Notes under the pieces: model-generated | What the model was told of the DNA's origin: nothing | What the model saw: the letters and a program-made list of their open reading frames with translations, nothing else | The model's database searches: none | Translations under genes and position numbers: made by a program | Part shown: in pieces, positions 26,805 through 32,894 of the stretch | Layout of the letters: each line of letters starts with the position of its first letter | Position numbering within the stretch: position 1 is the stretch's first letter | Source of the DNA: an uncultured Isosphaeraceae bacterium | GTDB lineage: Bacteria; Planctomycetota; Planctomycetia; Isosphaerales; Isosphaeraceae | DNA length: 64,000 nucleotides | Assembly: GCA_945957605.1 (NCBI GenBank) | Contig: CAMFLR010000002.1 | Location: 62,001 to 126,000 of the forward strand | Direction: 5' to 3'

Positions 26805-27812
26805 TCACTTCTTCACGGGCACATCAAAGTCGCCGAGGCGATTGCGCCAGTAGCTGTGAATGTGGTTCGCGTTGTTCTGGGTGTTGTTGAACTCGATCAG
26901 GAATGTCGGCCCTTGCACCTTGTAGTGGTGCGGCTGCGTCCGCTCGCCGGATCCAGCCCAGGCAAACTTGATCGAATCAACACCGGCCTTCTCAACCTCA
27001 TCAAGCCACGCCTGGCCGACTTCCGCAGTCATGTCGCCGGCGTACGACTCGATCAGGGCACGCAGCATCGGCCGCTGAGCTTCGGTGAGCTGGTTGAAGG
27101 CAATTCCTTCGGCGGCGTCGAGCGGCGGCTGCGGCTCGTTAGCCGAACGAATTTCCTTGGGCGCTGTCTCGGCGATGACGGCGATCTTCTTCTGAGCATC
27201 GTCGAGCGATTGCAGGAGGCGAAGCGCACGATCTTCGACATCGGCGAGAGTGCGCAGACCGCTGCGAGGACCCGTGCGGACTTCGGCCGGATTGGCGCCG
27301 AAGAATGCGGGGGTGGCGGAGACGATTTTGCCGTTGTTCACGACGAAGTTGAGCGAAAGGTGGTGGCCTTCGACGCGATAGCCCCACTTGCCCGAATCCG
27401 ACGGCGTGCCGAAGATCGAGATGAAGTAGAGCTCAGGGTCGCGAACCGGGCCGCTTCCTTTTTCGATGTCCTTGAGGATCTGCTCAAGGCTCATGATCGT
27501 CGTGGCCTTCAAATAGCCCGTCGATCCCAGGCCGGTCTGGATCAGGCCGAACGCGAGCGCCCGTTGCGCGGGCGTCATTTCCTTGATCGGCAGACCCTTG
27601 CGGGGGCGGGGAATGAAGTGCCAGTTCAGCCGTTCGGGGCTGTCGAATTCGAAGACAGCCTGAGCCTTCGCCTTGTCGTCAAGCGCCGAAAGGAGTCGAT
27701 TGGCGGCCGTGGCAAGCTGGCTGCCCGAGCGATCGATCACTGCGCTGGCGGCAAGTGCCAGGCCGATTACCCCCACCGTCGCCAGGGCCAAACTCGGCTT
27801 GATTCCGCGCAT
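26805..27812 (-). CDS. DUF3500-family secreted protein
   Basis: A 335-residue exported protein of the DUF3500 family, whose function is unknown. The N-terminus (LALATVGVIGLALAASAVI) is a signal or anchor. Family landmarks are NWHFIPRPRKGLPIKEM near residue 65, GYRVEGHHLSLNFVV near 150, TPAFFGANPAEV, and the C-terminal IKFAWAGSGERTQPHHYKV with IEFNNTQNNANHIHSYWR. The repeated His motifs look like a metal or ligand site, but that is inference. The rhodanese gene follows at 10 bases. Confidence 0.85.
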   Translation of the reverse strand: MRGIKPSLALATVGVIGLALAASAVIDRSGSQLATAANRLLSALDDKAKAQAVFEFDSPERLNWHFIPRPRKGLPIKEMTPAQRALAFGLIQTGLGSTGYLKATTIMSLEQILKDIEKGSGPVRDPELYFISIFGTPSDSGKWGYRVEGHHLSLNFVVNNGKIVSATPAFFGANPAEVRTGPRSGLRTLADVEDRALRLLQSLDDAQKKIAVIAETAPKEIRSANEPQPPLDAAEGIAFNQLTEAQRPMLRALIESYAGDMTAEVGQAWLDEVEKAGVDSIKFAWAGSGERTQPHHYKVQGPTFLIEFNNTQNNANHIHSYWRNRLGDFDVPVKK

Positions 27813-27887: not shown

Positions 27888-29234
27888 TCATCCTAACGAG
27901 TCTGGCCCCAAGGTCAACGCAGCGGCACTCGAAGCCATCGGCAGGCTGATCGTCACTTTCAATCCGGGATTATCATTTTCGGCGACGACTTTCCCATGAT
28001 GCAACTTCACCGACCGCTGCACAATCGCCAACCCAAGACCAACCCCACCACTCTCGCGACTGCGGTGCCCCTCAACCCTGAAAAATGGCTGGAAGATGGC
28101 GTCGAGCAATTCACTCGGCACACCGGGACCGCGGTCACGCACAGAAAAAGTCGCTTCTGTGCCTGAGACAGTGAGGCCGATCTGAACCGAAGTCCCCGGC
28201 TCGGTGTGACGGATTGCGTTACGCAGAATATTCTCGAACGCTCGTCTCAAGAGTTCGCGATCGCCAATCACCTCCGCGTTTTCGAGCGCGACAATCTCAA
28301 CCGCGCAATGCTTGGCCTTGGCTTCGAGTGCGGCATCATCGGCAAGATCGCGAATGAGGGCCGTGAGCGAAATCTCTTCGAGATCGAGCGCAGAGAGATC
28401 CCCCTCGGCTCGCGTGAGCTGAACGAGCTCGTTGACAAGCACGGAAAGGCGATGAATATCGCGGCGGATGCGATGGAGCATGTCGTGCGGCGTATCCGAA
28501 GCGAGCGCGAGATCGACTGCGACATCCAGTCGAGTGAGTGGTGATCGCAGCTCGTGCGAAACGTCTTGCAATAGTCGACGCTCGGCCGCGAGCAGCGTTT
28601 CGATCCGGCTCGCCATTTCATCGAATGCGTGTGCCAGCTCGCCGATCTCGTCCTTGCGATTTGATTCCGATCGCGCTGAACGCTCGCCTCGGCCGAAACG
28701 GTCGACAACCCCGCGCAGGCTGCGAATCGGTGCGACGAGATGCCAAGCCAGAATCGCTCCCAATGCCGCGACGACAAGTACAACGATCGTGTAGTAGGGA
28801 AACAGATTGATCGGCTCGAACCACGGTTCAACGAGCGTGATGAAGCGATATTTGCCGCCGTCGCCACGCTTCGGGCTCATCAAAATCATGCGGCCGTCGG
28901 CGAGTCGAGGCGGACCGTTGTGTCGTTTTCCTGGCTTCAGAAGTTCCGCTCGATCGGCACCGGTCACCAGATCGCGACCGGATGTATCGAGCAAAATATG
29001 CTCGCCTGAAAGATATTCGTCGAGCCGCTTGAGCTGGATGTCGAGCTTTTCAGCGCCACCCTCTTCATAAGCGCGGCAGATGTCGTCCTCGACCATCGGC
29101 ATCACGCTCATGAACGGGTTGCGGTCGTGAAACTGGTGCCGCTCGAACAATCGCGGAATCGACCAGAATCCGACGAGCGCGAGGGCGAGCGTCGCAAACA
29201 GCCAGACCATAATCTTGGCGAAAATCGATCGCAC
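27888..29234 (-). CDS. CpxA-like sensor histidine kinase
   Basis: A 448-residue membrane kinase. The start is GTG 29234, two bases after the response-regulator stop. TM1 is at about 9-27, a periplasmic sensor at 28-145, TM2 at about 147-168, then HAMP. LLQDVSHELRSPLTRLD has the phospho-His at residue 227. The ATPase has the N box (FENILRNAIRHTE), VRDRGPGVP and GGVGLGLAIVQRSV. Layout and the CpxR-like partner suggest envelope-stress sensing, possibly through the Spy/CpxP-like protein encoded upstream. The ligand is unknown. Confidence 0.92.
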   Translation of the reverse strand: MRSIFAKIMVWLFATLALALVGFWSIPRLFERHQFHDRNPFMSVMPMVEDDICRAYEEGGAEKLDIQLKRLDEYLSGEHILLDTSGRDLVTGADRAELLKPGKRHNGPPRLADGRMILMSPKRGDGGKYRFITLVEPWFEPINLFPYYTIVVLVVAALGAILAWHLVAPIRSLRGVVDRFGRGERSARSESNRKDEIGELAHAFDEMASRIETLLAAERRLLQDVSHELRSPLTRLDVAVDLALASDTPHDMLHRIRRDIHRLSVLVNELVQLTRAEGDLSALDLEEISLTALIRDLADDAALEAKAKHCAVEIVALENAEVIGDRELLRRAFENILRNAIRHTEPGTSVQIGLTVSGTEATFSVRDRGPGVPSELLDAIFQPFFRVEGHRSRESGGVGLGLAIVQRSVKLHHGKVVAENDNPGLKVTISLPMASSAAALTLGPDSLG

Positions 29235-29236
29235 GA

Positions 29237-29971
29237 TCAGCCGCCTTCCGCAAGCGCGCCGTCGTTGCGAAAGAGATAGCCCACGCCACGCACTGTGCGA
29301 ATCAACTCGCCTTTGTCACCCAGCTTTTTGCGGACGTTGCAAATATGCATGTCGAGCGAGCGATCGAACGGCGAGCTTCTGCGTTGATAAAGAGCGGCCG
29401 TGAGTTCATCGCGTGAAATCACTCGTCCCGCCGCGTGGACCAGGAATTCGAGGATATCGTATTCAACCGTGGTCAGCGGAATCGTCGAACCATCGACGCG
29501 AGCTTCTCGGGCCGACGCGATGAGCTTTACACCACTCGCTTCCATCACCTCGGCTTCGCGGGGAGTCCGCGCGACGCGCCTGAGCACCGCGCGAATTCGT
29601 GCGACCAGTTCGGCCGTGCCAAATGGTTTGGGTAAGTAGTCGTCTGCGCCGGCATCAAGTCCCATAACACGGTCGGCTTGAGTGATTTTGGCCGTCAGCA
29701 TGATGACGGGAACTTGGCTTTGACGACGGAGCAATCGCAGGAGTTCAAAGCCATCGAGGCCAGGCATCATCACGTCGAGCAGAACCAGGTCGTAATTGCC
29801 ATGAAGTGCGCGGGCGAGCCCCTTGCGACCGTCGTTCGCGACGTCGAGCTTGATTCCTCGACGCGCGAAGAATTCGCTCATCAACTCGCAAAGCTCGGCG
29901 TCGTCGTCCACCATCAGGAGCGAAACGCCGAGCAGAGTCGTTTCGGTTTTCTCCTGCGTCGGCTCGGTCAT
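29237..29971 (-). CDS. OmpR/PhoB-family response regulator, CpxR-like
   Basis: A 244-residue DNA-binding regulator. I chose ATG 29971, nine bases after GGCGAG; ATG 29980 is the alternative, and the longer frame runs into the upstream gene. The receiver has LLMVDDDAEL (acidic pocket), LVLLDVMMPGLDG (phospho-Asp66) and YLPKPFGTAELVARI. The winged helix spans about 150-235, with LTTVEYDILEFLVHAAGRV and VRKKLGDKGELIRTVRGVGY. Motifs are those of CpxR-type regulators. It is translationally close to the kinase, with a two-base gap. Confidence 0.93.
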   Translation of the reverse strand: MTEPTQEKTETTLLGVSLLMVDDDAELCELMSEFFARRGIKLDVANDGRKGLARALHGNYDLVLLDVMMPGLDGFELLRLLRRQSQVPVIMLTAKITQADRVMGLDAGADDYLPKPFGTAELVARIRAVLRRVARTPREAEVMEASGVKLIASAREARVDGSTIPLTTVEYDILEFLVHAAGRVISRDELTAALYQRRSSPFDRSLDMHICNVRKKLGDKGELIRTVRGVGYLFRNDGALAEGG

Positions 29972-29990
29972 CAGCGTCATCTCGCCACGC

Positions 29991-30023
29991 AAAAAGAAGG
30001 CCCGGACCAGAGGTCGTCCGGGC
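29991..30023 (-). terminator. Terminator-like hairpin between EF-hand gene and response regulator
   Basis: GCCCGGAC at 30000-30007 pairs with GTCCGGGC at 30016-30023, and the minus strand continues CTTCTTTTT. It could terminate the EF-hand transcript or attenuate readthrough into the two-component genes. Confidence 0.65.
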
Positions 30024-30047
30024 GAACTGCATCCTTCAGTAGACGGC

Positions 30048-30725
30048 TTATCGGTCGTCGCGTCCACCCTGCGGCGGCGGAGGAGCACCTGGACCACCCG
30101 CGCCCGGCGGGCCGCCAGGACCACGACCAGGACCGCGATCGCGCATTTCCTTCAAAATCCCATTTTGTTCCGACGTGAGAATCTTTTCAAGTTTGGAGTC
30201 GACATCTTTTTGAAGCGCGGCGATCTGCTTCGTTTGCTCGTCGGTCAATTCGAGCCGCTGGCTAACGAATTGCGGCAGGATTTCACCGGGACGGAAACGA
30301 GGCATTTGCATCCGTCCGCCAGGGCCACCACCAGGCGGGCCGAATCCAGGTCCGCCACCAGGAGGGCCAAACCCGGGCCCGCCGCCAGGTCCGCCAAAGC
30401 CGCCGCCTTCGGCATGTTCCTTTTCACCGAGGGCAATCAGCTCGGCCTTCGTCACCTTGCCGTCGTTGTTCGCATCGGCCCGACCGTAGAGCCGAACGAG
30501 ACGCTCGTCGGTCACTTCGTCCTTCGTGAGAACGCCATCGCCGTTCTTGTCGAAACCAAGCATGCGAGTGGCGAGGTCTTTGGCGTCAGCTTCCTTGCTC
30601 AGCGAGACACCGCCGTCTCCAGGTCCACCGGGGCCGGGACCACGTCCGGGGCCTTGCGCCAGGGCGATTCCTGTCGCGACGGCCAGCGCTGAGCCGGCTG
30701 TCAAATATTTCAAGGATCGATTCAT
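30048..30725 (-). CDS. EF-hand, Spy/CpxP-like (LTxxQ) exported protein
   Basis: A 225-residue exported protein. ATG 30725 is nine bases after AGGA; two earlier in-frame ATGs lack good sites. Signal peptide: LKYLTAGSALAVATGIALAQ. Two EF-hand calcium loops follow, DKNGDGVLTKDE and DANNDGKVTKAE. A Gly/Pro-rich low-complexity stretch then leads to ELTDEQTKQIAALQKDVDSK, which is the LTxxQ repeat of periplasmic chaperones Spy and CpxP. Placed directly upstream of a CpxR/CpxA-like pair, it may modulate that sensor as CpxP does in enterobacteria (inference). The C-terminus is again Gly/Pro-rich (GPGRGPGGPPGAGGPGA). Confidence 0.8.
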   Translation of the reverse strand: MNRSLKYLTAGSALAVATGIALAQGPGRGPGPGGPGDGGVSLSKEADAKDLATRMLGFDKNGDGVLTKDEVTDERLVRLYGRADANNDGKVTKAELIALGEKEHAEGGGFGGPGGGPGFGPPGGGPGFGPPGGGPGGRMQMPRFRPGEILPQFVSQRLELTDEQTKQIAALQKDVDSKLEKILTSEQNGILKEMRDRGPGRGPGGPPGAGGPGAPPPPQGGRDDR

Positions 30726-30758
30726 ATTCTTCATTCCTGACATGAATTTACGTTGAGT

Positions 30759-30833
30759 GTGGCTGGGTCAGAATGTCCCAGTGTGGAACGGGTGCCAAGT
30801 TCGTTGGGATTTGGGGCATTCTGCCCCAGCCAC
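30759..30833. repeat. Palindromic repeat pair, family 3 (GTGGCTGGG type)
   Basis: Two 22-base arms at 30759-30780 and 30812-30833 are inverted copies with two differences. Each arm has an internal hairpin, GGGxCA-GAA-TGxCCC, perfect in the right arm and with one T-T mismatch in the left. It fills the gap between the EF-hand gene and the dioxygenase gene. Confidence 0.75.
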
Positions 30834-30849
30834 CCGCCGACACTGCGTT

Positions 30850-31548
30850 TCACCGAGTGCGATTGGAAGGACGGTCGCGATCGTCGGGCGTGCGGCCGAT
30901 GATCACGTCGAACTTGGCCGCATATTCGCCGAGCTTGGAATCCTTGATCTTCACGAAATCGGTCTCGAGCAACTCGCGGTCGAATCGCGAAATCCCTTCG
31001 AGCACGACGTGATCGACCTTGTTCCCCGCGTGGCCGGCGATGTTGATCTGCGACGTGAGAATCTCACGATCCCCCTGCTTCACCTTGAAGTGAATGTGGG
31101 GCGCGGGACGACCGGGATAGGGAACCGGCTTGATCGTGCGGAAGCGGTATTCGCCGGTCGAGCTCGTTGTGAACCGGCCGAAACCCTGGAAGTTCTTGTC
31201 GCGCTGTTCCGCTTTTTGATCGCTATCAGCGCTGTGGAGATAAACTTGGTTGGCGTCGCACTGCCAGATTTCGATCGTGGCGTTGCGAATCGGGCTGCCG
31301 CTCGGCGTGAGAATCCGGCCTGAAAGATGCGTGATCTCGCCGACGGCCGGCGTCGTGCTGTCCTTGATCAAGATCAGGTCGTTGTCCTGGTCAAGCGGCA
31401 GCTTGTCGGGATAGAAGGGCCCCTCGGTGCGAGCGGGGGTCAGTGCCAGTTCCTCGGCGAAGAGGCCGGGCGTGGTGAAGAAGGCGATGCCCGCAGCAGT
31501 GGTTCCCAGGAAACGGCGACGGGTTGTCAGGCGATTGAACTCGTTCAT
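30850..31548 (-). CDS. Intradiol ring-cleavage dioxygenase-like protein (Tat signal)
   Basis: A 232-residue protein of the protocatechuate/catechol dioxygenase fold. The N-terminus is a twin-arginine signal, TTRRRFLGTTAAGIAF. The non-heme Fe(III) ligands are visible in order: Tyr in WQCDANQVYLH, Tyr in TGEYRFRTIKP, and His-x-His in PHIHFKV. The TEGPFYPD N-terminal motif and the THLSGRILTPSGSPIRNATI strand fit the family. Exported members like this are common in planctomycetes with no known aromatic pathway around, so the substrate is uncertain. It lies between two Spy-like proteins. Confidence 0.85.
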   Translation of the reverse strand: MNEFNRLTTRRRFLGTTAAGIAFFTTPGLFAEELALTPARTEGPFYPDKLPLDQDNDLILIKDSTTPAVGEITHLSGRILTPSGSPIRNATIEIWQCDANQVYLHSADSDQKAEQRDKNFQGFGRFTTSSTGEYRFRTIKPVPYPGRPAPHIHFKVKQGDREILTSQINIAGHAGNKVDHVVLEGISRFDRELLETDFVKIKDSKLGEYAAKFDVIIGRTPDDRDRPSNRTR

Positions 31549-31706
31549 GAATATTCACTCCATCAAATTTTGATCATATTGAAAACGAGGTGTGGAAGGA
31601 ACGAACCACATCATCGTGATCCGTCCGGTGCACAGCGTCGTGCGAGAGGGCCTGATGCACCCGGTCGCACCAGGTGACGGTTCAGTAGCGAAGGCGACGA
31701 ACTGAA

Positions 31707-32894
31707 TCAGTTGTCGTCGTTCGCGGGTTGGCGGCGCTGCCGCTTGTTTTGCGCATTGTTGGCAGGAGCGTCGCCCTCGGGCGGACCGCCGGGACCACCC
31801 GGTTGCAGGGTGGCCAGGTCGAATGGCTTGCCTTGCAACTTCTCAAAAGCGATGCGCTGATCCTTCGTCAGCAGTTCTTCGATCTGCTCGCTCGCCTTCT
31901 TGCGTGCCTTTTCGACCGTCTCGCGGATCTTGGCGAACTGAGCACGCATTTCAGGATTGTTGAAGTCGGGCGGACCACCACCGGGACCACCGCCGCCGGG
32001 GCCTCCCGGGCCGCCGCCTCCTGGGCCTCCGCCGGGGCCACCCTGGCCGCCGTTGCCGCCAGCCGCGTTCTGGTTCGCGTTGTTCCCACGTTGACGACGT
32101 CCACCACCGGGACCGCCCTGTCCATTGCCACCGGCCTGAGCGGCCTGATTATTTCCACCGCCGCCGGGGCCGTTGAAACCAGCATCACCACCCGGTCCAC
32201 CACCGCCAGGACCACCAAACCCGCCCGGGCCACCACCGCCGGGACCACCAAATCCACCAGGGCCGCCGCCGCCGGGACGTGGCATCGCGCTCGCCAGTGT
32301 TTGCTGGAGTTCAGCGGCGATCTTGCGGACCTGCTTCGTCTGTGCGGTCGTCAGTTTGAGCTTCGTGGAGACTTCCTTGCGATTCGCAATCGCCAGGGCA
32401 CCTTCACGCTGAAGTTCGATCTCGGCGATGCGTGTTTTCTGAGTCTTGTCGAGGACCTTCGTCGTTGCGGCCTCTTGCTGGCGACGCATCGAATTCATCG
32501 TCTCGAACATCGTTTGCGGGTCGAAACTCTCATCGCCAGGACGCGGCATTTCCTGGCGCTTCTTGCGATAGGTTGCTTCGATCGTTTTGAGTTGCGTCTT
32601 CTGCTTGTCGGTCAGCTTGATATCTTCCTGCACCGACTCGATCGACAGCAAATTCGGGCCACCACCAGGACCTCCCGGTCCACCAGGGCCACCAAAGCCG
32701 GGGAAACCACCGCCGGGACCTCCAGGACCACCAAATCCGCCAGGTCCGCCCCCTGGTCCACCGGGGCCACCGAACCCACCCGGGCCGCCGGGCGGTCCAC
32801 CTGGACCTCCTTCGGGGCCTTGCGCCTGGGCAGACACGGCCATCACACCGCCAACCAATCCGACCGCGAGCCACCGCGCGAATTGTTTTTTCAT
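31707..32894 (-). CDS. Gly/Pro-rich exported LTxxQ-like protein
   Basis: A 395-residue protein starting at ATG 32894. Signal peptide: FARWLAVGLVGGVMAVSAQA. It then alternates low-complexity Gly-Gly-Pro/Phe repeats (about residues 20-80 and 200-330) with helical segments. The helices are KLTDKQKTQLKTIEATYRKK, KVLDKTQKTRIAEIELQREG and KLTTAQTKQVRKIAAELQQ, three LTxxQ-like repeats of the Spy/CpxP class. A final helix is KARKKASEQIEELLTKDQRI. The Gly/Pro content is extreme and collagen-like, though without a strict Gly-X-Y period. It probably works in the periplasm; together with the 30048 gene it forms a pair of related proteins flanking the dioxygenase. Confidence 0.8.
   Translation of the reverse strand: MKKQFARWLAVGLVGGVMAVSAQAQGPEGGPGGPPGGPGGFGGPGGPGGGPGGFGGPGGPGGGFPGFGGPGGPGGPGGGPNLLSIESVQEDIKLTDKQKTQLKTIEATYRKKRQEMPRPGDESFDPQTMFETMNSMRRQQEAATTKVLDKTQKTRIAEIELQREGALAIANRKEVSTKLKLTTAQTKQVRKIAAELQQTLASAMPRPGGGGPGGFGGPGGGGPGGFGGPGGGGPGGDAGFNGPGGGGNNQAAQAGGNGQGGPGGGRRQRGNNANQNAAGGNGGQGGPGGGPGGGGPGGPGGGGPGGGPPDFNNPEMRAQFAKIRETVEKARKKASEQIEELLTKDQRIAFEKLQGKPFDLATLQPGGPGGPPEGDAPANNAQNKRQRRQPANDDN

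Follow-up and report, generated by a model that had tools for sequence, protein, structure and literature searches.

A conserved gene pair for a Tat-type intradiol dioxygenase and an exported EF-hand protein, adjoining a CpxA-core two-component system in an Isosphaeraceae genome

Judged by gene order across genomes, the conserved unit of the locus described here is a two-gene cassette, which encodes a Tat-type intradiol ring-cleavage dioxygenase (DIOX) and an exported EF-hand protein (EF), and not an assembly of Spy/CpxP-like proteins with CpxRA. The neighboring genes of a response regulator (RR) and a histidine kinase (HK) appear to form a separate transcription unit; the planctomycete family of CpxA-core two-component systems to which they belong adjoins the cassette only in this genome. 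We consider it probable that the core of the locus is an extracytoplasmic catechol-cleaving enzyme with a calcium-binding accessory protein, and that RR and HK, as a unit of their own, may regulate it. The window, i.e. the whole stretch of DNA that was analyzed, comprises 64,000 nucleotides. On its minus strand, the genes follow each other in the order GLY, DIOX, EF, RR, HK, and a DUF3500 gene; gene calls bore out the positions given in the original prediction. The features are:

31707-32894, minus strand: GLY, predicted exported 395-aa Gly/Pro-rich LTXXQ protein (PF07813, 28.1 bits versus a cut-off of 24.3)
30850-31548, minus strand: DIOX, Tat-type intradiol ring-cleavage dioxygenase, 232 aa (Dioxygenase_C, 78.5 bits, 5.8e-22)
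30759-30833, inverted repeat: REP-like palindrome between DIOX and EF, 22-nt arms, 31-nt spacer
30048-30743, minus strand: EF, predicted exported 231-aa protein with two EF-hands and an LTxxQ-like hairpin (Pfam EF-hand families above cut-off)
29990-30023, minus strand: terminator-like hairpin between EF and RR (terminator scan)
29237 to about 29980, minus strand: RR, OmpR/PhoB-type response regulator with CpxR-like core (Response_reg and Trans_reg_C)
27888-29234, minus strand: HK, sensor histidine kinase with CpxA-like HAMP-HisKA-HATPase core
26805-27812, minus strand: DUF3500 gene

The pairing of DIOX and EF was assessed in a set of 45 genomes of the window's family by searches with both proteins and by tblastn on the DNA of the loci. 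Of the 21 intact members of the DIOX clade, 19 have EF directly downstream and in the same orientation. The two exceptions (G030 and G031) are sisters, which lost EF and kept DIOX; EF is therefore not essential. The same order was found in 25 named loci, which overlap in part with the family set and belong to Isosphaeraceae (among them Singulisphaera and Aquisphaera), Schlesneria, Zavarzinella, Fimbriiglobus, and, outside the planctomycetes, one acidobacterial bin (Bryobacterales). The EF-linked DIOX proteins group into a single clade (support 97/96), just two members of which are devoid of EF; this indicates that the pairing arose once. Across planctomycetes of soil and freshwater, a DIOX gene of this kind is nearly always followed by EF. 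The dioxygenase that precedes EF in G010 is a more distant one (31% identity). A candidate DIOX-EF fusion in G026 (L051) was ruled out as evidence of fusion: it is truncated, has lost its frame, and reads as a decayed remnant. No description of the pair was found in the open-access literature, and the role of EF as a partner of DIOX is apparently undescribed. The dioxygenase, which the original prediction had treated as incidental, is thus the conserved partner of EF, whereas the two-component system is not fixed. Several genera carry, upstream of the cassette, the gene of an ECF sigma factor and that of a Ser/Thr kinase containing a Pro-rich segment (L037, L039, L045, L049, L051); as these occur in a minority only (Singulisphaera, G002, G010, G026), they were dropped as candidates for the cassette core.

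DIOX passed the cut-off of PF00775 (Dioxygenase_C; 78.5 versus 27.3 bits), and its N-terminus contains the Tat-like start RRRFLG. The four Fe ligands Tyr103, Tyr144, His151, and His153 are invariant in all 63 homologous dioxygenases compared. Its best match among solved structures is the beta subunit of protocatechuate 3,4-dioxygenase (2.3e-17); the intradiol enzymes 4ilv and 6bdj were matched as well. The equivalog cut-offs for the alpha and beta subunits of protocatechuate 3,4-dioxygenase were missed by a wide margin (79.7 versus 296 and 70.9 versus 126 bits). The structures 4ilt/4ilv are of secreted intradiol dioxygenases of Streptomyces, and 6bdj is of the secreted intradiol dioxygenase Tetur07g02040 of the spider mite. 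DIOX has the Dioxygenase_C fold and the Tyr/Tyr/His/His iron ligands in common with all of these, and an export signal in common with the secreted enzymes. It differs in the Tat type of its signal, in its EF-hand protein partner, and in that no carbohydrate-binding domain was found in it. At L237-L250, L268, and L270, dioxygenases of Bryobacterales are encoded by long frames of about 430-530 aa, which corresponds to a C-terminal extension past the dioxygenase domain.

EF consists of a signal peptide, the EF-hands (about residues 50-112), a Gly/Pro linker, a hairpin (158-202), and a Gly-rich tail. The loops DKNGDGVLTKDE and DANNDGKVTKAE are canonical 12-residue EF-hand loops, which are conserved in 15 of 15 relatives in the family alignment. 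AlphaFold2 modeled both EF-hands with a pLDDT of about 90 or more and the C-terminal helical hairpin with values of 80-93; confidence was low in the Gly/Pro linkers. The best structure matches in the PDB are EF-hand proteins, and EF thus presents canonical loops in a paired fold, from which binding of Ca2+ is predicted. The EF-hands announced for one of the two LTxxQ-type proteins were in this way confirmed. The claim that two LTxxQ proteins flank the dioxygenase was borne out for GLY, which belongs by the Pfam cut-off to the Spy/CpxP/ZraP family (PF07813), but not for EF, which missed this cut-off (11.7 versus 24.3 bits). Among 15 relatives, six gave an LTXXQ match at E<1, the best one at 0.0027, and EF is thus assigned to the LTxxQ type only weakly. 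What EF shares with the Spy/CpxP/ZraP family is a helical hairpin containing a single LTxEQ motif; it differs by its paired EF-hands and Gly/Pro linkers, and GLY by long Gly-rich linkers. A profile comparison of EF and GLY yielded a probability of 98%, the alignment resting largely on the Gly-rich linkers. GLY precedes DIOX-EF only in this genome and in two Singulisphaera genomes; as it adjoins DIOX elsewhere only in Singulisphaera, it was ruled out as a core member and is an optional third member of the cassette.

Between EF and RR, the terminator scan detected a perfect, GC-rich stem of 8 bp (GCCCGGAC and GTCCGGGC, separated by 8 nt), followed by CTTCTTTTTG. This stem is kept in the centroid fold, and the spacer as a whole is not unusually stable (z -1.1). 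Because the whole region contains no more terminator-like sites than shuffles do (6 versus 6.0), the hairpin was judged on form and position: it has the canonical shape of a terminator and, being terminator-like, would separate EF from RR. In 19 relatives, no terminator of similar quality follows EF. EF does lie next to RR, as had been stated, with this hairpin in between; due to the hairpin and the lack of conservation, a single EF-RR-HK operon was rejected as the default, and read-through from EF into RR-HK is possible. Only 2 nt separate the stop of RR from the start of HK, and both genes very probably form one transcription unit. An arm of the REP-like palindrome has 42 matches in the genome, compared with 0 for a reversed-pattern control. 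Since this palindrome lies between DIOX and EF, co-transcription of the two genes is uncertain in this genome. Upstream of GLY, DIOX, EF, and RR, neither direct repeats nor CpxR boxes exceeded chance.

The original prediction had proposed gene-neighborhood conservation as a check on the association of EF with RR-HK. This check was run and came out against it: in none of the 20 other genomes carrying DIOX-EF do RR and HK adjoin the cassette. Orthologues of HK were found in 20 loci, all away from the cassette. In six of these (L123, L130, L131, L133, L135, L140; five from one genus and one from another), the orthologous pair adjoins genes for a DUF4956 protein and an EF-hand CotH protein; the latter is encoded upstream, in most cases with the DUF4956 membrane protein in between. 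In a seventh locus, the neighbor is a membrane protein that carries a single EF-hand-like motif; further neighbors of the orthologues are glycosyltransferase, acyltransferase or esterase genes. In total, 8 EF-hand genes occur in 224 kb of the RR-HK orthologue loci versus 1 non-anchor gene in 306 kb of the DIOX loci, an enrichment which stems mostly from one genus.

Which role, then, does the adjacent two-component system play? It might stand beside DIOX-EF by pure chance, without any regulatory link. In line with this explanation, only one of the family's 22 cassettes has the system next to it, and about 0.06 such cases are expected by density (P about 0.06). On the other hand, OmpR-type regulators are rare in this genome (six strong ones and one weak one), yet of its three DIOX genes, two have such a regulator alongside, namely in the window and on contig C15 (Poisson P about 2e-4). 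In the family, at least 6 OmpR-type regulators were counted at a distance of up to 5 kb from a DIOX gene, compared with 0.37 expected from 209 regulators in about 320 Mb and 53 DIOX genes. Note that five of these six cases share a single layout, with another RR-HK pair running divergently from DIOX or from the cluster containing it (some of them including methyltransferase and EF-hand genes). Since these five do not count as independent cases, the Poisson figures make the evidence look stronger than it is. Besides the family found in the window, two further families of two-component systems occur beside DIOX. In Bryobacterales, where two-component genes stand beside DIOX of two clades, a third RR-HK family adjoins DIOX in 5 of 20 loci examined. 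In one Bryobacterales locus (L161), the genes DIOX, EF, HK, and RR follow each other with the end of each overlapping the start of the next. This locus is a contig of 6 kb from a metagenome bin; mis-binning is argued against by its RR, which shares 61-67% identity with regulators that adjoin DIOX in other genomes of Bryobacterales. We regard chance adjacency as rather unlikely. The proposed link of the exported proteins to a sensor is not supported for this particular system, which is not conserved, and in a broader form finds some support in the enrichment of OmpR-type regulators near DIOX, in the overlapping genes of L161, and in the EF-hand CotH genes; this comparison suggests a broader dioxygenase/EF-hand/sensor association, which is real enough to test. 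A separate, recurring association was seen in proteobacteria (Methylobacterium, Sphingomonas, Hyphomonadaceae, and others), where small EF-hand proteins adjoin OmpR-type RR and HK genes (L167, L183, L184, L186, L194, L196, L198, L202, L209, L211, L212).

A second type of cluster was found at L171, L214, and L215 (contigs C15 and C10 of this genome, and G019). It combines a divergent RR-HK pair, an EF-hand protein, ApbE-DUF2271, a catechol-O-methyltransferase-like protein, and a DIOX paralogue. L171 joins all of these, its methyltransferase-like protein being fused to an EF-hand; in this genome, L215 contains an EF-hand-ApbE-PepSY trio and L214 a DIOX-OMT pair beside RR-HK. The EF-hand-ApbE-PepSY trio was also observed in Verrucomicrobia and Akkermansiaceae (L169, L203) and in a bin labeled Kuenenia (L187). 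In PMC8238504, PepSY/ApbE clusters are tied to iron reduction; paralogues of the EF-hand and DIOX genes in the window's family lie in or near such flavinylated ApbE-DUF2271-PepSY clusters, for which the part of that paper considered here contains no mention of EF-hand, methyltransferase or dioxygenase partners. The dioxygenase and EF-hand genes could belong to a module for extracytosolic handling of iron or catecholates. It is the paralogue clusters alone that point to extracytosolic iron handling; the cassette of the window has neither ApbE nor PepSY nor an iron transporter as a neighbor, and we consider this explanation unlikely.

The CpxRA-like system of the original prediction proved to be Cpx-like in its cores and not beyond. 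For the catalytic core of HK, CpxA is by far the best match among solved structures (4.2e-40; next protein 2e-25), and the full-length RR is closest to CpxR. CpxA and CpxR are also the best NCBIfam matches, but scores are far below the equivalog cut-offs (HK: 227 versus 800 and 225 versus 486 bits; RR: 193 versus 341 bits), and the CpxA match of HK spans only residues 149-433, with the periplasmic sensor outside. Neither a match to the CpxA sensor in HK nor a true CpxP at the locus was found; the neighbors differ from those of Cpx, and RR-HK is adjoined only by the weakly similar EF. CpxR boxes (GTAAA-N5-GTAAA, at most 2 mismatches) occur at chance level (16 in the window versus 14.6 expected). 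Because of the scores below cut-off, the unmatched sensor, the CpxR boxes at chance, and the position of EF below the LTXXQ cut-off, HK is a CpxA-core kinase and not a shown Cpx system. A role of EF (and GLY) as CpxP/Spy-like regulators that act on the neighboring kinase in a Ca2+-modulated manner would fit the adjacency of EF to RR-HK, the kinship of the cores, the EF-hand CotH and EF-hand-like neighbors of the orthologues, and the overlapping genes of L161, yet we judge it very unlikely, as EF occurs without this system and the system without EF, the sensor region of HK is conserved in orthologues having no EF neighbor, EF and RR have a terminator-like hairpin between them, EF scores under the LTXXQ cut-off, and CpxR boxes are not enriched.

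In the reading that we favor, an enzyme with its accessory protein, DIOX would fold with Fe(III) in the cytoplasm, be exported in the folded state by Tat, and cleave catechol-type rings outside the cytoplasm. EF would be exported by Sec, load its paired EF-hands with Ca2+ or a similar cation, and serve DIOX via its Gly/Pro linkers and LTxxQ-like hairpin as a stabilizer, tether or envelope chaperone; contact between the two proteins is proposed from gene adjacency alone, which does not prove it. GLY would be an optional extra LTXXQ protein. RR-HK may have come to regulate the cassette, and other OmpR-type two-component systems probably regulate related dioxygenases. A bolder generalization, which we think quite unlikely, is that exported EF-hand proteins are Ca-dependent accessories of extracytoplasmic catechol dioxygenases and at the same time report the state of these enzymes to adjacent OmpR-type kinases, a scheme that would have been assembled repeatedly, from unrelated kinases, in Planctomycetota and Acidobacteriota. 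The analysis assigns a conserved partner to a widespread family of Tat-type intradiol dioxygenases of planctomycetes and offers a testable role for exported EF-hand and Gly-rich proteins, which are usually annotated as hypothetical. It also suggests that planctomycetes may cleave catechols outside the cytoplasm under the control of sensors.
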